NCBI GenBank assembly: GCA_025057015.1
Contig: JANWYG010000021.1
Location: forward strand, 62,001 to 126,000
From: Blastocatellia bacterium
GTDB lineage: Bacteria; Acidobacteriota; Blastocatellia; Chloracidobacteriales; JADJPF01
Direction: 5' to 3'
Length of the DNA: 64,000 nucleotides
Under the pieces are notes generated by a model. That model was not told the origin of the DNA, did not search any database, and was given only the letters and a program-made list of their open reading frames with translations. Shown here piece by piece: positions 2,496 to 64,000 of this stretch. The translations under genes were made by a program, and so were the position numbers. Numbering within the stretch: the stretch's first letter is position 1; each line of letters starts with the position of its first letter.

Positions 2496-3647
2496 CTAAC
2501 TCTTTGCTTCAGCAATTTGTAGTCCAGCCTGAAGCGAGCGCTGCGCCCGCCGCATCTGGTATTCTAAACGCTTGATCTGAACTAGATGCTTTGGGTTAAA
2601 AGCAAGCGAAGGATAGTAACAGTTGCTTTCGTGCGTACAATAGCAGCCAGCCTTTACCTTTTTGCGGCGTTCGGCCATAGCAGGCGAGTTCCAAAGTGCC
2701 TGAAAGTTCCAATCATAATCACGCAGGTTTGCTACACTCTCTAAGTTCTCGCAGCTAGAAACTGTCCCTTCGTCATAGATAACAGCTCCAGCAGTACCAG
2801 CCCAACAACGCAGCTGTGCCTTGTGCTCGATTTCTGTTCGAGCTATCAGTTCGTGCATGTATATATCTATAGCTGCCTTGAATATTCCAGCTCTTCCTGC
2901 ATAGCTATTCTTTATCACTGCCGTACGCGAATCTTCATCTATCATCTGCGCAAGCTTACGGTAACGCTCTAAGTCTATATTGAGTTCCTCAGGACGTGCC
3001 GAAGGCGGTCGAATGTAGTTGACGTTAATTTTATCGGGACGCAATTCCCGCTTTAGGAAGTCGTACCACTCAAATATCCTGTCTTGATTGCTTTTCATAA
3101 AGCACGTACAGGTCTGTATATCAAGCCGAGGAAAAGAACGTTTGAGCTGCTGCAGTTGCCGCGCAGTATCTATAGCCCTGGCCCAACTACCAGGCTTTTG
3201 CCGAATCTTGTCATGCTCAGCTTCGAGACCATCTATACCAAGAGCTACAGTGACGTTAAGTTCAGGACACTCTTTCAAAATCCGCTCGACGTCAGGCAAA
3301 ATACGCTTTTGTATCTGCCCATTCGACATCAAATAAACCGACTCTAGGCGATTATTCCGATAGAAGGCACTGACTACCTCTGGCAAATCCTTGCGAGTGA
3401 ACGGCTCACCCCCAGCTATTATCAGCACCGGGAGATTGCCACCAAGCGTCTCGCTAATTCTTACTAACTCGTGCGTCTTCATCTGAAGTGCTTTACGAGG
3501 TTTATCGTCTAGCTCCTCAGTAAAGAAACAGTGCACACAGCGCATATCGCACACTGATGTAATTAATATGTTTAGCACTACTGGCGGAAACGGCTTGCCC
3601 AAGATGGCTTGCCCATAGCGCTTCAGTAATTCCGTAGAATAATTCAT
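2496..3647 (-). CDS. Radical SAM protein with SPASM-like C-terminal cysteines
   Basis: A 383-residue radical SAM enzyme. CxxxCxxC (Cys33, Cys37, Cys40 in SVCDMRCVHC) binds the SAM-cleaving 4Fe-4S cluster, and the GGEP motif (AGGEPFTRKD) binds SAM. After the barrel, Cys residues in RCWAGTAG, SSCENL, GCYCTHESNC look like ligands for an auxiliary cluster, as in SPASM/twitch proteins that modify peptides, cofactors or small molecules. An AGAGGAG site lies three bases before the ATG. The gene follows an acyl-CoA dehydrogenase by nine bases in the same operon, which suggests a lipid or acyl substrate, but this is inference. Not recognised as a named family. Confidence 0.82.
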   Translation of the reverse strand: MNYSTELLKRYGQAILGKPFPPVVLNILITSVCDMRCVHCFFTEELDDKPRKALQMKTHELVRISETLGGNLPVLIIAGGEPFTRKDLPEVVSAFYRNNRLESVYLMSNGQIQKRILPDVERILKECPELNVTVALGIDGLEAEHDKIRQKPGSWARAIDTARQLQQLKRSFPRLDIQTCTCFMKSNQDRIFEWYDFLKRELRPDKINVNYIRPPSARPEELNIDLERYRKLAQMIDEDSRTAVIKNSYAGRAGIFKAAIDIYMHELIARTEIEHKAQLRCWAGTAGAVIYDEGTVSSCENLESVANLRDYDWNFQALWNSPAMAERRKKVKAGCYCTHESNCYYPSLAFNPKHLVQIKRLEYQMRRAQRSLQAGLQIAEAKS

Positions 3648-40850: not shown

Positions 40851-42841
40851 GAATGTTTAGCTTGCAGGATCAGGATAAAGACTATAGGGTATATATTTTA
40901 TTCTTTGTAGTTGCTTTTCTATGCTATGCAAATAGTCTAACAGGAGAGTTATTAAGCGACGACATTATTCTCGTTGTGCGCAATCTAAATGCGCATCATT
41001 TTTCAACACTATATAAGCTTTTTTTACAAAATAGTTTCCATACAATAGTTGATGACGGAACATACAGGCCTATCAGCAATCTAACTTTCGGTTTCAACTA
41101 CCTCATACATGGTGAGCATACCTTTGGCTACCACTTAGTCAACACGCTGCTACATGGAATAAATGCAGTACTACTCTATGAACTAACGCTACAAATAACC
41201 AAAAAACCATTCTTGGCGTTTGGATGTTCGATCATCTTTCTCGTACATCCTGTGAGGGTAGAAGCAGTATCTTTCATCTCTGCTAGACACGAGCCCTTGG
41301 CAGCACTCTTTAGCTTCCTTGCCATTAGGACCTACTACAGCCGACGCTTAGCCTTGTCAGCCCTAATGTTTGCACTTGGGCTACTTAGCAAGGAATCTGC
41401 TATAGTCCTGCCTGGAGTAATCTTATTGTTAGATGCGTACATCGATCGTAAGCCACCGTCAATTTGGCTTAAGCAGCGTCTACTACCGGTGGCAGTATAT
41501 GCCGGAGTAACTGTTGCGTATTTAGCAGTCCGATATGCTGTGCTTGGAAAGCTCACCGTACCGATAGAAAATACGGTGTTTAAGACAGCTCCTTTGATGA
41601 CTAGAGTACTCACTATGGCAGACGGCTTTCTGGAGTACTTTAGGCTACTAGTCTGGCCAGTAACGTTACGCTTCGAGTATGATTTCAGCATCATCCCTCC
41701 ACAGAACGCTCTTACACTTGCTGCGGTCACTAAGGTAGCTTTGATTATTGCTGTACTAGCTTTTGGTATAGCGATATTCAGCAGGTTAAAAACTATCTCT
41801 TTCAGCATACTCTTCTTCTTCCTTACTCTGTCTACTGTCTCGAACATACTTACTCCAACGGGTATACTCATAGCCGAGCGGGTTTTATACATACCAGCTA
41901 TAAGTTTTGGACTGATAGTTTGTTATTTTCTCGACAAGCTTTATAGCAGTAATTTGCGCAAGCTTGCTATAGTAATTCTTATAGTTATATCGGGAGCATT
42001 TGCTACAAGAACTATTTTGCGTAACCGCGATTGGCAAAGCAGAGAAGCTTACATAGCTGCTTTTGTACGTGACGTACCAAACTCACCTAAGAGTGCTTTA
42101 CTTGATGGCTATAGAAAACTAGAAAGTGGTGATATCAAAGGTGCGGAGCAAGCTTTTCTAAGAGTAATAGAACTTGAACCAACCAGTGCAGGCTCTTACG
42201 TGATATTAGGAGACTTTTATTCCAAACAGCTCAAGTTAGATCAGTCTCGTGCTCTATATGAAAAAGCACTAAGTATTGCTTCACAGGATGCTACAGCGCT
42301 ACTTGGCCTTGCTAGACTTGATATCCTAGAAGGAAACTACACAAAAGCGCTACAACTTTTGGAGAAAGTGCAAGAGAAAATACCAGACAGTGAGTTTGTA
42401 TTCTACGATGCTGCATATGCTTGCTACCAGCTAGAACAGTTAGACAAGGCAAAAGAGTACCTGCAGAAAGCTTTTGCGATTAACAAAAACCAACCGACAA
42501 TCCTGCTCCTAGCAGCAAGAGTAGCTATTAAACAAAGAGATTTTAATCTAGCAGAAACGACTTTAGCTGAGGTAAAAGCATTAGATCCAGAAAATGCTGA
42601 GTATTATATCGTGCGTGGCTTATTAGAGCTTGCTCGACAAAGATACGAAGCAGCGCTGGATGCTTTTGATCAAGCAAGGCGTGGCCAGATTAACTCAGCT
42701 GAACTTAACTATGCCACCGCCCTCGCATTCTTTTACCAAAACAAATTCACCTTAGCGCGCAAGTTCTTACAAGACACGCTTCGCTTACAACCCAATCACA
42801 GTGCTGCAGCGGAGCTACTACAAAAACTACCTAAACAGTAA
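40832..42841 (+). CDS. TMTC-like membrane glycosyltransferase with TPR tail
   Basis: A 669-residue protein. The N-terminal half (~20-390) is a polytopic GT-C-like membrane domain with the acidic DD pair in LLSDDIILVVRN, a loop TYRPISNLTFGFNYLIHG and a lumenal HPVRVEAVSFISARHE, as in the TMTC O-mannosyltransferase family. The C-terminal ~250 residues are six or so TPRs (GDIKGAEQAFLRVIELEPTS). Such proteins probably glycosylate secreted proteins using polyprenyl-phosphate mannose. ATG 40832 overlaps the YihY gene; ATG 40853 is an alternative. The tail overlaps the convergent radical SAM gene by 11 bp. Confidence 0.75.
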   Translation: MARIKIRMFSLQDQDKDYRVYILFFVVAFLCYANSLTGELLSDDIILVVRNLNAHHFSTLYKLFLQNSFHTIVDDGTYRPISNLTFGFNYLIHGEHTFGYHLVNTLLHGINAVLLYELTLQITKKPFLAFGCSIIFLVHPVRVEAVSFISARHEPLAALFSFLAIRTYYSRRLALSALMFALGLLSKESAIVLPGVILLLDAYIDRKPPSIWLKQRLLPVAVYAGVTVAYLAVRYAVLGKLTVPIENTVFKTAPLMTRVLTMADGFLEYFRLLVWPVTLRFEYDFSIIPPQNALTLAAVTKVALIIAVLAFGIAIFSRLKTISFSILFFFLTLSTVSNILTPTGILIAERVLYIPAISFGLIVCYFLDKLYSSNLRKLAIVILIVISGAFATRTILRNRDWQSREAYIAAFVRDVPNSPKSALLDGYRKLESGDIKGAEQAFLRVIELEPTSAGSYVILGDFYSKQLKLDQSRALYEKALSIASQDATALLGLARLDILEGNYTKALQLLEKVQEKIPDSEFVFYDAAYACYQLEQLDKAKEYLQKAFAINKNQPTILLLAARVAIKQRDFNLAETTLAEVKALDPENAEYYIVRGLLELARQRYEAALDAFDQARRGQINSAELNYATALAFFYQNKFTLARKFLQDTLRLQPNHSAAAELLQKLPKQ

Positions 42842-44486
42842 GCACCGGCAACTGTGGACGCAATCTGTGTTCTGGCACTTCAACTTTATCAGGCACTTTG
42901 TACTTCGGAGGTCTGTTGCTACTAAAGTCCAGATAGAGTTTCCCTCGCATCCACCGCTCTGGAAAGTGAGCTAACCTATAGAGCGGATATTTCATACCTT
43001 TTCCAAAGAGCTTTCGACCGAGCAAATAGTAATATATCGGTATACCTATGGCAAACTTCAGTTTTGTGTGTAAGTAATCGTAGTAGAAGTCCAGGTTATA
43101 CCTCCAGCAAGTGAAGAAAAATTCCCACTGAAGGTCTGTTAGTTTGACGAACTTAGCGCTTTCTTTATCTTCTAGCCTAGTATCCTCAAGCGGCACAAAC
43201 AGCGTAGGAACGACACACCATTTAGAGCCTTTCAATGCATACAGCAACTCGAGCGACTCCTTAGTATCCTCTTCAGTCTCTCCAGGCAAGCCTACTATCC
43301 AGGTACAGAAGGGAAACCAGTTGTTCTTATTCAGTATTTCCATTCCTTTCAATATAACATCTGGCCATTGCTCAGGTCTGAAAGGATAGCACTTGCCCTT
43401 CATATATTGCTTGAAGAGCCTTACAGAAGCTGTCTCAATTCCCACAAACAGATTAGCATAGCGCTTCTCTGGGTGTGTAGACTTCTTGTGCCTGTGCAGA
43501 CTTTTATTTACTGCTACCTCAGACAGCTCTTCTATCATATTAGGTTCGAGCACTACCGGGGCCATAGTCCCATGGGTCAACAGCACATGCTCGACACCTG
43601 GTACAGAGGCTACAGCCTGCAACATTCTTTTTATTGCAGGAACATTAGTCTGAAACCGCGGCCCTTGCTCATACAAAAACAGATCTTCTGTAGTCAACAG
43701 TATCGTGTCAGCTCCTTCAGCCACTTGTACTCGAGTGTTCTCTATTATGTGTTCAAGTGGCAAGGACTTACCTGCCCTAAGCGCTACAGAACAGAACTGA
43801 CAACCACGACCGCATCCGCGCGTGATCTCTACCACGCCGAACGTCGCCCGGTGCTTTATAGTAGGTATCTTACTTAGCTTGGGACTGTGACATTCGACGC
43901 GTCTAGGCAATTGCTCTCCTCTTACCGCTGCCTCGAACAACTCTACAACCACATCCTCAGCTTCCCCATCCACTATACAATCGATACCCCATGCGTCTTG
44001 TAGATTCTTCTTTTCTATCTGCCAAGACCCAGGCCCACCAACTATAATCTTAATGTGATCTTTATGCTTCTTCAGTGCAGGATGCAAAATAAGCTTCCTA
44101 AACTCGGTAGCATTTACAGGCTCGACATCCCTGCCATAAAACTGAGCGTAGACATCGGTCGCAAAAGTTATTCCTAAAGGATTATGAGCATGTATGCCCA
44201 CAACCTTAGTGTCAGGCCCTACGAACAGGTCAAGCTGCTCCGGATAACACACTGCTACATTCTCTTCGCCGAAATGATCCACCAACAGCGATTCTACTAC
44301 TCTGAGGCCGTTAGGTACATATTTGGCCTGTCCATCAGGATTAACCTCATTTTTAACTGATATATCCGAAATAAAACGAGCATATTGCGTGGGCAACGTA
44401 GCAAGAAGCATTTGCCGCCAAGTGCTCTTCATGTACTCCGAAGACTCTGAGTTGCTAGCAGCAAGTACTATGGTTCTCCCTCTCAT
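42831..44486 (-). CDS. B12-binding-type radical SAM protein, membrane-associated
   Basis: A 551-residue radical SAM enzyme. Residues ~60-190 look like a degenerate cobalamin-binding Rossmann domain (KVVGIHAHNPLGITFATDVY, IIVGGPGSWQIE), lacking the DxHxxG base-off motif. Cys225, Cys229 and Cys232 (GCGRGCQFC) ligate the 4Fe-4S cluster. The C-terminal ~90 residues hold hydrophobic, aromatic-rich segments (IPIYYYLLGRKLFGKG, with a basic PERWMRGK), which suggests contact with the membrane. The ATG follows GGGGAGG. Known class B radical SAM enzymes include hopanoid, bacteriochlorophyll and membrane-spanning-lipid enzymes; a lipid substrate is plausible but unproven. Confidence 0.8.
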   Translation of the reverse strand: MRGRTIVLAASNSESSEYMKSTWRQMLLATLPTQYARFISDISVKNEVNPDGQAKYVPNGLRVVESLLVDHFGEENVAVCYPEQLDLFVGPDTKVVGIHAHNPLGITFATDVYAQFYGRDVEPVNATEFRKLILHPALKKHKDHIKIIVGGPGSWQIEKKNLQDAWGIDCIVDGEAEDVVVELFEAAVRGEQLPRRVECHSPKLSKIPTIKHRATFGVVEITRGCGRGCQFCSVALRAGKSLPLEHIIENTRVQVAEGADTILLTTEDLFLYEQGPRFQTNVPAIKRMLQAVASVPGVEHVLLTHGTMAPVVLEPNMIEELSEVAVNKSLHRHKKSTHPEKRYANLFVGIETASVRLFKQYMKGKCYPFRPEQWPDVILKGMEILNKNNWFPFCTWIVGLPGETEEDTKESLELLYALKGSKWCVVPTLFVPLEDTRLEDKESAKFVKLTDLQWEFFFTCWRYNLDFYYDYLHTKLKFAIGIPIYYYLLGRKLFGKGMKYPLYRLAHFPERWMRGKLYLDFSSNRPPKYKVPDKVEVPEHRLRPQLPVLTV

Positions 44487-45464: not shown

Positions 45465-46151
45465 CTAATGCTTACCATACTCCATAGGTACACCTTTACG
45501 CTGTGACATAATATAAGCTTCCAGAGCACGCATCTTTGGATCGTCAGGCTCTAGCTTTTTACCACGCGAAGGATTCTCTATGCACCAGTTGATCATGTCG
45601 CGCAGCAGCGCCACACGCTGCAACTGTATCTGATATTTCGGATACGTTTCTGGATGGGTGTTTGCAGCATTCGGATGACACATAGCGCAAGAGACACCAT
45701 TGGTGCTACCTATGAGCTGATCATCGTGAAAAATCTGGTCACCATAGTCTATGAGCTTTTTAAGTTCCCGCTCCCACATCTGTATGTCGCGCTTGGTAAA
45801 CTCATAAGTCTGTTTTTCCTGCTTTACAGATTCGTCACCCGCTTTAGCCTGAGCTTTCTGCTGAGCTTTCTTCTTACCCTCTTGGTATTCCTTCGTCCAA
45901 GCTGCTGCAACAGCCGGTGGCTGCTTTGCAAGCCACTTGGCCATCAGTTCGTTAGTTACAGCTTCGGCTTCAGAGCGGCTCAATCGTTCGTTTGGTAAAC
46001 GTCCTTCAAGTTGCACGTAAGTCTCACCATCACACAGTTTTACTGTCATTACCTTGTCTTCATCCTTCACCGAAGGATGCTGCTGCGCATTAACTACATA
46101 AAAAGCAAGCAACAGCAGCAGCACCACAAGTACCTTTAACTTTTTCTCCAT
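45465..46151 (-). CDS. Periplasmic monoheme cytochrome c-type protein
   Basis: A 228-residue exported protein. The signal peptide is KKLKVLVVLLLLLAFYVVNA. A single CxxCH heme site (CAMCHPNAANTH) sits near residue 153. A Lys/Gln/Ala-rich, charged helical region precedes the heme (~85-120). I start at ATG 46151, six bases after GGAGG. It is the last of three genes running from the diheme peroxidase through a metallophosphoesterase, so it is a plausible electron donor for the peroxidase. The heme is one of three in the operon. Confidence 0.85.
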   Translation of the reverse strand: MEKKLKVLVVLLLLLAFYVVNAQQHPSVKDEDKVMTVKLCDGETYVQLEGRLPNERLSRSEAEAVTNELMAKWLAKQPPAVAAAWTKEYQEGKKKAQQKAQAKAGDESVKQEKQTYEFTKRDIQMWERELKKLIDYGDQIFHDDQLIGSTNGVSCAMCHPNAANTHPETYPKYQIQLQRVALLRDMINWCIENPSRGKKLEPDDPKMRALEAYIMSQRKGVPMEYGKH

Positions 46152-46167
46152 CCTTCGCCTCCTAAAG

Positions 46168-47298
46168 TTAGTAAGACGGCAGAGTAGTCGCTGGTGGGCG
46201 GTCCTCGGCCCCTTCACTATCAAGATAGCGAGCGCTCACTCGCATAGGATTTCTGTTCCACAGGTTGTAATGCTTGTCTACTCGTCCTGTAGCATGAACC
46301 TCTACAGTACCGTCCCCTAAACCATCAGTCTGGTTAAACGGATTTTGGCGGTTCATCTGCACGGTCAACTTCGGTAAACCCGTAGGCGCATATGGCCAAG
46401 GCCAAGCTGTAGATAACATGCCATGAAAGTGGATGTTACCTATGCGATGAGTAAGCACTTGGTGCGTATGCCCGTGTATAACTGTCACCTTCTCAAACGG
46501 TCTAAGCAGTGCCTGAACTTCCTCAGCATCTTCAGTCCAAAAGTTCCAGTTTCGATAGAGCTTATAAAGCGGTGAATGAGAAAATACAACTATAGGCGTC
46601 TTTCTATCTACCTTTTGTAGGTCTTGCTTGAGCCACTCGCGTTCTTCCTCACCTACTTCGAAAGGACTCTGACGTGCATCGTCTAAGCCAGCAACTATCC
46701 TCATTCTCTCCATAGGAGAGTACCCCTTCGCCGTCCAAAAATCCTTCTCATTTACGCTCATCAACGTGATAAAGTGCACGCCTTTGTGATCAAAAGAGTA
46801 ATAAGGCGGGCCAAAAAGTTCTCTCCATACCTCACCCATATCGAGAAACCAGTCATGCTCGCCTACCATCATCTTCACTGGAGCTTTTATCTCTTTCAGT
46901 ATCTGAGCCCCTAGCTTTAGCTCGCCTGGCTGGCCTAATTGTGCAAGATCTCCGCCGTAGAGCACGAAGTCAGGCTGCGGATCTAGAGCATTTATATCGG
47001 CTACGGCACGTTGTAGCTGCCTAACAAACCGCTCGTTAAGAGTCTTTTCATATAAATGTGAGTCAGATATGTAAGCAAAAGTAAACGGCTTTCTGTCATC
47101 ACTAGAGACAACATCCACTAGCTGAAAAGAATGTGGCGTAAAAGACTTGCTCGCAGCAAAACCAGCTGCCATAGCAGCCATCTTTAAGAACTTGCGCCGT
47201 CCCTGCCAAGTACTACCAGCCTGCATCAGCTCGCTAAACCACCGCTCGCGACTTTTCATATACTCTTGTAGTTTTTTCTCCCACTTCAAAGGTAACAT
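46168..47298 (-). CDS. Tat-exported calcineurin-like metallophosphoesterase
   Basis: A 376-residue dinuclear-metal phosphoesterase. Motifs are in order: ISDSHLY, GGDLAQLG, GEHDWF, FSHSPLYK and HGHTHQVL. A twin-arginine motif RRKFLK at residues 34-39 followed by a hydrophobic run (MAAMAAGFAAS) marks Tat export, so the fold reaches the periplasm with metals loaded. The N-region of about 33 residues is long. The substrate could be a phosphomonoester, phosphodiester or a nucleotide. It sits between two cytochrome genes with gaps of 11 and 16 bp, which is not an arrangement I recognise. Confidence 0.88.
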   Translation of the reverse strand: MLPLKWEKKLQEYMKSRERWFSELMQAGSTWQGRRKFLKMAAMAAGFAASKSFTPHSFQLVDVVSSDDRKPFTFAYISDSHLYEKTLNERFVRQLQRAVADINALDPQPDFVLYGGDLAQLGQPGELKLGAQILKEIKAPVKMMVGEHDWFLDMGEVWRELFGPPYYSFDHKGVHFITLMSVNEKDFWTAKGYSPMERMRIVAGLDDARQSPFEVGEEEREWLKQDLQKVDRKTPIVVFSHSPLYKLYRNWNFWTEDAEEVQALLRPFEKVTVIHGHTHQVLTHRIGNIHFHGMLSTAWPWPYAPTGLPKLTVQMNRQNPFNQTDGLGDGTVEVHATGRVDKHYNLWNRNPMRVSARYLDSEGAEDRPPATTLPSY

Positions 47299-47309
47299 TG
47301 CTATTCCTC

Positions 47310-48476
47310 CTACTTTGCCGGTTCTCTGGTTTGCGGTTTGAGCGAATAGAAACGCTTCTTACTTGCATCGCTCGTAAGCGTCTTCAGAAACTCCACCAGA
47401 TCGAACATTTCCTGATCGGTAAGCTTCAAAGGACGCATCCCACCATCAAGATTGGGGTTTACTTCACCACCTCGGTCATAAAACTTGATTACGTCTAACA
47501 AAGTCTTTTCAGACCCATCATGCATATAGGGCGCTGTGAGCTCTACATCGCGCAACATCGAGGTCTTGAAAGCACCTATGTCGCGCGGCTCTCCAGTTAC
47601 CAGATACCGTCCAAGCTCCGAAAAGCCAGGCGACAGCGCTAGCTCATCTTGGATACGCTGCCTATCCTTGTTTGCCGCTATAAGCTGCTGCGCTTTACGT
47701 GCAAGTTGCGAAAAATTCCTATCTTTCGCTGCTACACCGATGTTGTGAAATTTAAAGTCGCTGAAAAAGGGATTCGTAGAGTTAAACGCATGACAACTGA
47801 TACAACGCGCTTTACCGTTGAAAAGCTCCCAACCGCGCTTTGCCGACTCGGATATAGCAGAAGCATCTCCCGCAATAAAACGATCGAAAGGTGCATCACC
47901 TGATAGCTGTACGCGCTCAAACGCTGCTATGGCTTTCACAATCGTATCTATGGTTATACCTTCACTTCCGAAGACCTTCTCGAATTCGACCCGATATTCA
48001 GGTATTTCTTTGACTCGCTCAACCACTGCGTCATGGTCCTTCATGCCCATCTCTATTGGATTTATCAGCGGTAGCTTAGCCTGCTCCTCAAGCGACGGCG
48101 CCCGCCCATCCCAAAACTGAAGCTCATTAAAGACAGCATTAATGATGCTAGGTGAGTTTCGAGCACCCTTCTTTAGCTCTACTCCAACGGCAACGGCGTT
48201 TGAGTCAGCAAAACCCAAAGCCGGATCATGACACGTAGCACAGCTTACCGTACGGTCTGCTGACAACCTTTTGTCAAAGAACAACTTCTCGCCTAAAGCG
48301 ATCTTTTCCGGAGTCAAAGGATTATCGGCAGGTATGAGAGACTCCCAGAGATCCTGAGGCAAGCCTCTAGGTACTTGGAAGTTCATACTACTGGATGCCG
48401 CTCTCTGCGGAGCTACATCGACTACGAGCACAGCTGCTACCAGCAAAATAAATAGAACCTTGACAATTTTTTGCAT
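47310..48476 (-). CDS. Diheme cytochrome c peroxidase / MauG-like
   Basis: A 388-residue periplasmic diheme enzyme. Signal peptide ~1-25. Heme sites are CATCHDPALGFAD (Cys79, Cys82, His83) and CISCHAFNSTNP near residue 228. The segment LTAPYMHDGSEKTLLDVI carries the C-terminal Met/His region typical of CcpA/MauG. It reduces hydrogen peroxide with electrons from a small c-type cytochrome; MauG members instead oxidise protein or small-molecule substrates. An AGAGGAGG site precedes the ATG. First gene of the three-gene operon. Confidence 0.9.
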   Translation of the reverse strand: MQKIVKVLFILLVAAVLVVDVAPQRAASSSMNFQVPRGLPQDLWESLIPADNPLTPEKIALGEKLFFDKRLSADRTVSCATCHDPALGFADSNAVAVGVELKKGARNSPSIINAVFNELQFWDGRAPSLEEQAKLPLINPIEMGMKDHDAVVERVKEIPEYRVEFEKVFGSEGITIDTIVKAIAAFERVQLSGDAPFDRFIAGDASAISESAKRGWELFNGKARCISCHAFNSTNPFFSDFKFHNIGVAAKDRNFSQLARKAQQLIAANKDRQRIQDELALSPGFSELGRYLVTGEPRDIGAFKTSMLRDVELTAPYMHDGSEKTLLDVIKFYDRGGEVNPNLDGGMRPLKLTDQEMFDLVEFLKTLTSDASKKRFYSLKPQTREPAK

Positions 48477-61597: not shown

Positions 61598-62581
61598 ATG
61601 AAACGTGTAGCGCTTGTCTTCACAGGTGGTACCATCTCTATGCAAACAGATCCGGTAGTGGGAGCCGCTATACCTGTATTGTCTGGCGAGCAGATCCTGG
61701 CTACAGTCCCGGGACTAGAAAAGCTTGCCGAGTATGAACTTGTAAACTTTGCACGCTTACCAGGTCCACACATGACGCCTGGCTTAATGCTAGAACTTGC
61801 TGAAGAACTACGACGGCTGCTCGAACGCGAAGACATCTGCGGAGCTGTAGTCACGCATGGCACGGACACTTTGGAAGAAACCGCCTATTGCCTCGACTTG
61901 CTGCTTACCAGTGAAAAGCCAGTAGCACTGGTAGGTGCTATGCGCAGCAGCTCCGAGCCAGGTTGGGACGGACCGCCAAACTTGCTTGCCGCAGTACGTA
62001 CCGTCGTCTGCGAGCAAGCTCGCGGTCTGGGCGTAGTAGTAGTGATGAATGACGAGATAAACGCCGCAAGTGAAGTAACAAAGACGCATACCGAGGCGCT
62101 TGGCACCTTCCAGAGCCCGAATTTCGGGCCGCTCGGTATAGTCGACCGCGACCGAGTACTGATACTGCGTCGACCTGCTTTTCGCGAACATATCCATACC
62201 GATACGATAGATACACATGTCGATATCATCAAAATGGCGGCAGGCGTAGACGATCGGCTTATAAATTATGCCGTAGAAAGCGGCACTCATGGCCTAGTCA
62301 TAGAAGCGCTCGGCCGTGGAAACATCCCTAGTTACGCCATTCCTGGTGTGGAAAATGCTGTACGACGCTGCATTCCAGTAGTAGTCGTCTCAAGGTGCTT
62401 ACGAGGACGTGTACTAGATACCTATGGCTATACAGGCGGTGGCCATGAACTCCGACAGATGGGAGCTATCCTAGGCGGACACTTACCCGGTCAAAAGGCC
62501 AGGATTAAGCTGATGCTGGCTCTAGGCCTTACCAAGGATATAGAGAGAATACGCGCTATCTTCGAAAAGAACTACTACTAG
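61598..62581 (+). CDS. L-asparaginase (bacterial type)
   Basis: A 327-residue asparaginase. The two conserved Thr motifs are visible: FTGGTISM (first nucleophile Thr) and VTHGTDTLEETAY. It hydrolyses L-asparagine (or glutamine) to aspartate and ammonia. There is no signal peptide, so it should be cytosolic. ATG follows AAGGAGAGG. Its stop overlaps the hpnJ stop by 4 bp on the opposite strand. A second, unrelated asparaginase-type enzyme (glycosylasparaginase) is at 32908-33921. Confidence 0.9.
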   Translation: MKRVALVFTGGTISMQTDPVVGAAIPVLSGEQILATVPGLEKLAEYELVNFARLPGPHMTPGLMLELAEELRRLLEREDICGAVVTHGTDTLEETAYCLDLLLTSEKPVALVGAMRSSSEPGWDGPPNLLAAVRTVVCEQARGLGVVVVMNDEINAASEVTKTHTEALGTFQSPNFGPLGIVDRDRVLILRRPAFREHIHTDTIDTHVDIIKMAAGVDDRLINYAVESGTHGLVIEALGRGNIPSYAIPGVENAVRRCIPVVVVSRCLRGRVLDTYGYTGGGHELRQMGAILGGHLPGQKARIKLMLALGLTKDIERIRAIFEKNYY

Positions 62582-64000
62582 ACCCCTTTGTGGGAACTAC
62601 CAAGCTGCTGCGCTTGTATCTGTTGGCGTACGTAGCCCTTACGTTTTGAGCGCAGCTGCAAAAACTGACGAGCCTCGTTGTAAAGCCTACGACGCTCTTG
62701 CCCATCAAAGATTGCTCTACTTACGATACGTGCTATTACCCGAGGTCTAAAGTAGTACTCGTCGTAGAAACGTTCGACGCTCTGCATCACTTCTGCCTTA
62801 CTCAAGCCTGGTATCCTTACCTGTGGTAACTGATGCCCCTGCTCATCGGCCATCTCATCGCTATCATCCAAAAACCCCATCTGCACCATCTGTTCATACA
62901 TCTCCGTACCTGGATAAGCATGCGCTATCGACACCTGTATAGTCTCGCAATCCAGCTCTTTGGCAAACCGGATGGTACGCTCTATGCTCTCTTTTGTCTC
63001 TCCCGGCAAGCCGATTATGAAATCGCCGTGAACAAGTATACCGAGCTTCTTACAGTTCTTCATAAAATGGCGTGCCTGCTCGGTAGTAGCTCCCTTCTTT
63101 ATGTTTTTGAGTATCTGGTCATCGCCTGACTCGAAGCCTACTATCAAGAGGCGACAACCAGCTTCTTTCATAGCCTTGAGAGTCTCATAGTCAGTGTGCA
63201 CACGCGAAGTGCATGACCAGGTAAACTTAAGCGGCTTAAGTTTCTCACATAGCTCAAGCACCCGCGACTTGCGCCAAGCAAAAGTATCGTCATCAAAGAA
63301 TATCTCTTTCAAATTAGGAAAGTATTCAAGTGCACGACGTACTTCTTCGACGACGTTATCAGCACTTCTAGTACGCCACGGATGCCCACTTATCGTCTGT
63401 GGCCAAAGACAGAAGGTACACAGCGCAGGGCAGCCACGCTCAGTATAGAAGGCTATGTACGGATGAAGCAAAAATGGAACGTTGTACTTAGTAATATCAA
63501 GATCACGTTTGTATATGTCTACGACAAAAGGCAGCTTGTCTAAGTCATGCAGCGGCTTGCGATCAGGATTGTGCACTACATGACCATCCTTTATATAGCT
63601 TACTCCGTCTATCTCAGACAGAGGACGGCCCTCTGCATACTCGGCAACGGTGTAATCGAATTCCTTACGTGCTACGAAGTCGATCGCTGCCGAAGCTCGC
63701 AGCGACTCTTCAGGTCGCACGGTCACGTGCGGACCGACAAAACAGATCTTTATATCCGGCTTAGCAGCTTTCATCATCTCAGCCAGCCGAACATCATTTT
63801 TGAAGCCCGGAGTAGAAGTAAACAGCACGACGAAATCGTAGTCTTTTGCTATTTCCACAGTCTGATTCACGCTTACGCCATGTGGCGGAGCATCAAGCAG
63901 CCGCGACTTAGGAATAAGACCAGCCGGGTAAGCTAACCATACAGGATACCAAAACGACGCGATCTCTCTCGTAGCTGGCCAGCGAGAACTAGCACCTCCA
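62578..64000 (-). CDS. hpnJ: Hopanoid-associated radical SAM protein HpnJ (cut by window edge)
   Basis: A GTG at 63870 could start a 430-residue protein, but the frame stays open to 64000 and encodes PATREIASFWYPVWLAYPAG and RLLDAPPHGVSVNQTVE, the conserved N-terminal opening of the family, so the true start is outside. The B12-like domain (VVLFTSTPGF, ICFVGPHVTV), the 4Fe-4S site ERGCPALCTFC and the downstream FIIGLPGETKESI fit HpnJ, proposed to close the cyclitol ring of bacteriohopanepolyols. It predicts a hopanoid-making cell. The end overlaps the asparaginase gene by 4 bp. Confidence 0.88.
   Translation of the reverse strand, partial: GGASSRWPATREIASFWYPVWLAYPAGLIPKSRLLDAPPHGVSVNQTVEIAKDYDFVVLFTSTPGFKNDVRLAEMMKAAKPDIKICFVGPHVTVRPEESLRASAAIDFVARKEFDYTVAEYAEGRPLSEIDGVSYIKDGHVVHNPDRKPLHDLDKLPFVVDIYKRDLDITKYNVPFLLHPYIAFYTERGCPALCTFCLWPQTISGHPWRTRSADNVVEEVRRALEYFPNLKEIFFDDDTFAWRKSRVLELCEKLKPLKFTWSCTSRVHTDYETLKAMKEAGCRLLIVGFESGDDQILKNIKKGATTEQARHFMKNCKKLGILVHGDFIIGLPGETKESIERTIRFAKELDCETIQVSIAHAYPGTEMYEQMVQMGFLDDSDEMADEQGHQLPQVRIPGLSKAEVMQSVERFYDEYYFRPRVIARIVSRAIFDGQERRRLYNEARQFLQLRSKRKGYVRQQIQAQQLGSSHKGV

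Follow-up and report, generated by a model that had tools for sequence, protein, structure and literature searches.

A class B-type radical SAM family of Acidobacteriota tentatively linked to the tailoring of membrane lipids

Does the radical S-adenosylmethionine (SAM) protein encoded at positions 42831-44486 of a 64,000-nucleotide stretch from a Blastocatellia bacterium (assembly GCA_025057015.1, contig JANWYG010000021.1, positions 62,001 to 126,000; hereafter the window) act on membrane lipids, and if so, how? The initial annotation proposed a B12-type radical SAM protein that might cross-link lipids, and it thereby joined two questions that the present analysis takes apart, namely which gene couples the lipid tails and what the window protein does. 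The best single reading, which we do not hold to be probable, is that the protein represents a class B-type radical SAM family, as yet uncharacterised, that tailors ether-linked or membrane-spanning lipids, and we put it forward tentatively.

The gene is a real open reading frame (ORF) at exactly the coordinates first given, running on the minus strand from an ATG start over 551 amino acids, with 9 stops on the plus strand of the same interval, and it occurs as a single copy in the source genome of 3.33 Mb. Since an identity of 54-76% has been kept in independent genomes, a chance ORF is ruled out. Matches at E <= 0.001 were obtained in 44 of 58 relatives, some of which are weak and concern other radical SAM proteins; the full-length homologues are either 54-76% or about 40% identical to the window protein. 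A scan of GTDB contigs yielded 186 relatives, the best 80 of which were kept for locus work; 67 of these 80 loci contributed to an alignment of 68 sequences (A2), while 13 were dropped as fragments, near-duplicates or broken sequences. The window protein scores 50.4 bits with Pfam Radical_SAM (PF04055; cut-off 29.5), which places it in the radical SAM superfamily, and the CxxxCxxC motif reported in the initial annotation is found as CGRGCQFC, its cysteines being invariant in 68 of 68 sequences. Besides this trio, C80 is the only invariant cysteine, which indicates that there is no auxiliary cluster of the methylthiotransferase kind. The HNPLG motif is invariant at H101, N102, P103 and G105, with L104 kept in at least 90% of the sequences. 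At the position of GGPGSWQ, class B proteins commonly have GGPH. The match to the Pfam B12-binding domain (PF02310) reaches 19.6 bits and the cut-off is 32.1, so that the earlier wording of a degenerate cobalamin-like domain was fair, and for this reason we call the protein class B-type rather than cobalamin-dependent.

The B12-type architecture is borne out by the predicted fold. An AlphaFold model built from A2 (mean predicted local distance difference test score 88.9; predicted template modelling score 0.88) has a Rossmann domain preceding the radical SAM barrel, as in the class B layout, and MgmA and other class B structures match its residues 5-503. The top match in the PDB is MgmA (9ccb), with a Foldseek E-value of 1.8e-15 and a VIA Z of 23.1 over 359 residues at 3.8 Å, and the class B-type enzymes TsrM, OxsB, CysS, TokK and AprD4 give VIA Z values of 13.5 to 18.0. 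MgmA holds its cobalamin tucked into the Rossmann domain without a lower ligand (PMC11796369), and therefore the absence of a His-type motif from the window protein does not exclude cobalamin. A cobalamin riboswitch is present in the source genome.

The C-terminus had been described as hydrophobic and basic, and of these two properties only the second was confirmed. Residues 451-520 of the window protein carry a net charge of +5 and consist for 28.6% of F, W and Y; across the 68 sequences the net charge of this region ranges from 4 to 9 with a median of +7, and aromatic residues make up about 26% of it as compared to 8% elsewhere in the protein. A transmembrane segment is not indicated in these sequences, the best 19-residue Kyte-Doolittle window reaching 1.51 at most (median 1.12), and the region is thus basic and aromatic overall rather than hydrophobic. 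Judged from its composition, such a tail is compatible with contact at the membrane surface.

A tree of 82 sequences resolved three clades, 1a (30 rows, including the window gene), 1b (24) and 2 (28), with support values of 98, 100 and 97, respectively, in the Shimodaira-Hasegawa-like approximate likelihood ratio test (SH-aLRT). Clade 2 sequences are about 40% identical to the window protein. Some genomes combine clade 2 with 1a or 1b, and among the genomes listed none was seen with 1a and 1b together, which would fit both of these clades having the same job. So far the family is almost confined to Acidobacteriota, judging from the best 80 of the 186 relatives, and it is patchily distributed: 40 of 395 Acidobacteriota genomes carry it, as do 50 of the 237 genomes of the taxonomic family of G418. 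A set of 50 family-positive genomes was also compared, in which fragments in G001 and G040 and the weak-only matches among the 58 relatives were disregarded. The clade-1a gene of the one record labelled Arcobacter (L069, DYJN01000063.1) clusters with Bryobacteraceae, and the assembly behind it is probably mislabelled or chimeric.

For the membrane-lipid substrate suggested in the initial annotation, the backing comes from genomic context. Ether-lipid genes lie near the orthologue in four of 34 clade-1a loci (G016, L052, L053 and L074), the count comprising 31 of 34 loci from the best 80 relatives, three fragments having been dropped, together with the window, G016 and G032. In G016 (locus L136) a single strand carries an AMP-ligase/acyl carrier protein (ACP)/acyltransferase gene, a radical SAM gene resembling L039 of the source genome, a small ORF, a homologue of tetraether synthase (Tes), a membrane-spanning-lipid enzyme, and, about 190 bp downstream of the latter, an orthologue that is 76% identical to the window protein; one unrelated ORF, a gap, a HAD/fatty-acyl reductase gene (NAD_binding_4 and Sterile domains) and a second reductase-like gene follow, Pfam domains having been assigned here to the ligase and the first reductase only. 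The orthologue in L074 is part of a co-directional stretch of lipid genes that encode a pair each of NAD_binding_4 proteins and AMP-ligases together with an enoyl-CoA hydratase and an acyltransferase. In L052 and L053 reductases are found within 10 kb. In G134 a Tes homologue and a reductase gene are found at distances of 4.2 kb and about 10 kb, respectively, from a clade-2 gene, and genes that read as nadA/nadC-like occupy the opposite strand between the latter and the Tes homologue. In the source genome itself, another contig encodes a protein of 1457 amino acids with NAD_binding_4, Sterile, AMP-binding, ACP and acyltransferase domains, a set that we take to be that of ElbD. The latter is an ether-lipid enzyme (PMC11868695).

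Reductase neighbours were seen in 4 of 34 clade-1a loci, as compared to an expectation of 0.25 (at an assumed 2 copies per genome) to 0.49 (at an assumed 4); P lies between 1e-4 and 2e-3, with loci that are related and not independent. Tes homologues within 5 kb were seen twice where about 0.1 would be expected (P 0.005). The reductase query has matches in 71 of 395 genomes. Outside the class to which the window belongs, the reductase is present in 7 of 11 family-positive but only 20 of 330 family-negative genomes (Fisher P 2e-6); for tes the figures are 9 of 11 and 136 of 330 (Fisher P 0.009). Both tests ignore phylogeny.

If the protein does tailor lipids, its basic aromatic tail would place it at the membrane surface, where its substrate would be the long alkyl chains in ether-linked or membrane-spanning lipids. 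The most likely chemistry would then be radical methylation of an unactivated chain carbon, in which a 5'-deoxyadenosyl radical would abstract a hydrogen and methylcobalamin, if bound, would donate the methyl group; a separate Tes homologue would join the tails and an ElbD-type enzyme would make the ether bonds. We favour methylation because of the fold and because an extra C5 or C6 methyl has been reported in some acidobacterial strains only (PMC13274423). No gene is named for this methylation in the open-access literature searched, including the excerpts of PMC13274423. That the family, and clades 1a and 1b in particular, includes the enzyme adding the C5 or C6 methyl to the chains of iso-diabolic acid or branched glycerol dialkyl glycerol tetraethers (brGDGTs) in Acidobacteriota appears to us unlikely. 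If true, it would be the enzyme behind the modification that underlies the brGDGT temperature proxy; reconstructions of past temperature and pH draw on branched tetraether lipids, whose makers and enzymes are only partly known (PMC13274423, PMC10087280). In any case a patchy family that sometimes occurs in ether-lipid clusters, and once beside a Tes homologue, provides a concrete gene for tests of lipid tailoring.

Several observations weigh against lipid tailoring. The B12-binding match is sub-threshold, and in fold the methylthiotransferases RimO and MiaB come directly after MgmA with VIA Z values of 18.3 to 19.3, which is nearly as good. The window gene lies outside any lipid cluster, its neighbours being a rhomboid and a tetratricopeptide repeat (TPR) gene, and a Pfam scan covering 98 of the 162 neighbours in clade-1a loci revealed no lipid theme, with NAD_binding_4 in 2 and AMP-binding in 1. 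G032 carries a family gene (74% identity) without tes or reductase at the thresholds used, and tes matches are missing from three of the 40 family-positive genomes (G032, G162 and G274). Inside the window's class the family is not correlated with the reductase (22 of 29 versus 22 of 25 genomes), and the family-positive genomes outside the class mostly carry clade 2, so that the co-occurrence signal stems mainly from that clade and not from 1a. Lastly, we found no published lipid profile for genomes carrying clade 1a.

It is quite possible, although we would not call it probable, that this class B-type radical SAM enzyme has a non-lipid substrate, such as a protein side chain (as in MgmA), RNA or a small molecule, and that the cluster links are incidental. 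The nearest folds are indeed a protein methylase and RNA or protein methylthiotransferases, the gene is solitary both here and in the majority of relatives, and the reductase is uncorrelated inside the class. Against this explanation stand the recurrence of ether-lipid genes beside orthologues in four loci and the co-occurrence outside the class, as well as a tail that is basic and aromatic throughout the family, whereas in five other radical SAM proteins of the source genome the C-terminal end is 4-11% aromatic. Formation of rings or cross-bridges in membrane-spanning lipids, as carried out in archaea by GrsA/B (rings) and Gms (bridges), shares the lipid context of the tailoring proposal, and a producer of cyclopentane-bearing lipids, Solibacter usitatus, is described as having Grs homologues (PMC10087280); since no lipid-ring family was seen among the NCBIfam matches, we regard it as improbable.

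Tail-to-tail coupling for iso-diabolic acid by an orthologue or analogue of the bacterial synthase Mss was what the initial annotation had in mind, and the radical SAM type, the lipid-cluster links and the acidobacterial host all suit it, as does the fact that in archaea the step is performed by a radical SAM enzyme, Tes (PMC8941075). Among the 17 Radical_SAM places of the source genome, however, is a separate Tes homologue (L038, 679 amino acids), which scores 324.7 bits with the Tes model NF045702, under the cut-off of 450, and matches the solved Tes structure 7tol at E 1.2e-62. Tes homologues are present in 54 of the 58 relatives and in 198 of 395 Acidobacteriota genomes, as compared to 40 for the window family. 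In the presumed Chloracidobacterium genus (g6) all 7 genomes have tes and none has the window family, yet Chloracidobacterium makes iso-diabolic acid (PMC12816986). In a family presumed to represent subdivision 1 (f16), just one of the 49 genomes with tes also carries the window family; cultures of subdivisions 1 and 3 contain iso-diabolic acid as 20-40% of their fatty acids (PMC13274423). Moreover, the orthologue in G016 adjoins the Tes homologue and does not replace it. Based on this distribution and on the separate Tes homologue, tail coupling was rejected as first choice: the window gene is unlikely to encode the tail-joining enzyme, its being an Mss counterpart is very unlikely, and a better candidate is available in the Tes homologue, a role in these lipids having been put forward as a hypothesis for bacterial Tes homologues (PMC8941075, PMC11868695).

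The Tes homologue of the source genome is located directly behind a small radical SAM gene (L039, L038 and L148; G000:C7:116485-119544). The same pairing occurs in G016, and the partner is above no NCBIfam cut-off among the matches listed; it may belong to the same pathway. An independent tes-reductase pair was observed in G078 (C119:66994-71547), where a HAD/fatty-acyl reductase gene follows the Tes homologue after about 0.4 kb on the same strand and the window family is absent.

Modification of hopanoids or other polycyclic lipids, as by HpnR or HpnJ, is highly improbable in spite of an hpnJ gene about 18 kb away in the same window, since the window protein scores 19.7 bits with HpnR (TIGR04367; cut-off 650), HpnJ (cut-off 577.6) is not among its NCBIfam matches, the HpnJ of the source genome aligns with it only marginally, and no radical SAM gene of that genome's hopanoid set was recognised beside relatives; a hopanoid methylase was rejected on the profile scores.

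The features of the window gene are collected in the table. A rhomboid gene on the same strand precedes the window gene by 83 bp, and the end of the window gene shares 11 bp with a TPR gene on the other strand. Upstream of the rhomboid gene, the minus strand of 45465-48476 carries genes for a MauG-type di-haem cytochrome c peroxidase, a metallophosphoesterase and a SoxA/TsdA-type cytochrome. The hpnJ gene (62578-63999, minus strand) runs past the window edge and scores 779.9 bits with TIGR03471 (cut-off 577.6); hpnH (L043) is located on a different contig. The third radical SAM gene of the window (L045, ~3144-3566, minus strand, 383 amino acids) is above no NCBIfam cut-off among the matches listed. 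Searches of the window for tRNAs and Rfam families came back empty, and promoter- and terminator-like sites occur at chance level. With regard to conserved neighbours over the best 80 of the 186 loci, recurrent blocks were seen mostly in clade 1b, seven loci of which (L075, L076, L078, L084, L086, L087 and L095) share a divergently oriented second B12-binding radical SAM gene beside the homologue, of about 514 amino acids that scores 58.2 bits with PF02310 in L078 and reaches no NCBIfam cut-off.

Table. Features of the radical SAM gene in the window
Feature	Residues	Position	Strand	Remark
Whole gene, class B-type radical SAM protein, clade 1a of the Acidobacteriota family	551 aa	42831..44486	-	
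Rossmann-type N-terminal domain; sub-threshold B12-binding match at residues 125-183	~1-205	43872..44486	-	Boundary read from secondary structure
HNPLG, after a Rossmann-domain strand	101-105	44172..44186	-	
GGPGSWQ	150-156	44019..44039	-	G150, G151, G153, W155 and Q156 invariant in 68 aligned sequences
CGRGCQFC, radical SAM [4Fe-4S] motif	225-232	43791..43814	-	Pfam and alignment
Radical SAM barrel	~213-440	43167..43850	-	Pfam and model
C-terminal tail, helical, basic and rich in aromatic residues, no transmembrane helix	441-551	42834..43166	-	

Compared to known systems, the window protein is above no NCBIfam cut-off, although 22 families match it at E <= 1, and all 68 members of A2 match both TIGR04013 and TIGR00089. 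Its best match is the hypothetical equivalog TIGR04013 (B12_SAM_MJ_1487), at 77 bits as compared to a cut-off of 251. With TIGR00089 (MiaB/RimO) it scores 68.5 bits, the best stretch being residues 138-331, whereas the cut-off is 251. MiaB/RimO methylthiotransferases bind a second cluster through three N-terminal cysteines. In contrast, C80 is the only invariant cysteine in the N-terminal domain of the window family, and neither an N-terminal methylthiotransferase domain nor a TRAM domain was found in a Pfam scan of the window protein; on the score and the cysteines, a methylthiotransferase identity was rejected. With HpnR, HpnJ and the ladderane-linked TIGR04072 it has the lipid-linked class B layout in common, and TIGR04072 gives 26 bits, the cut-off being 360. 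Tes (NF045702; PDB 7tol) is likewise a radical SAM enzyme of membrane-spanning lipids, but the window family is without further invariant cysteines for auxiliary clusters, NF045702 is not among the 22 matching families, and a pairwise comparison with the Tes homologue of the source genome gave no meaningful alignment; Tes is also not among the best 50 matches listed per fold comparison, which does not exclude a common fold. For Mss, the membrane-spanning lipid synthase of Thermotoga maritima, a role in iso-diabolic acid formation has been proposed, and homologues are recognised by more than 30% identity at E <= 1e-30 to a characterised Mss (PMC13274423). DUF4080, a domain that may be linked to Mss, gave no match in any control genome. 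On sequence and fold comparison with NCBIfam, the PDB and the Tes and HpnJ proteins of its own genome, with Mss, GrsA/B and Gms outside that comparison, the family appears to be new. The system most like it is MgmA, the cobalamin-dependent radical SAM enzyme that C-methylates a glutamine of methyl-coenzyme M reductase and thus a methanogen enzyme with a protein substrate (PMC11796369): the two share the Rossmann domain, the barrel and the CxxxCxxC motif, the likeness being in fold only (37.8 bits with TIGR04014, as compared to a cut-off of 360), and the window protein is the longer of the two and carries the basic aromatic tail.

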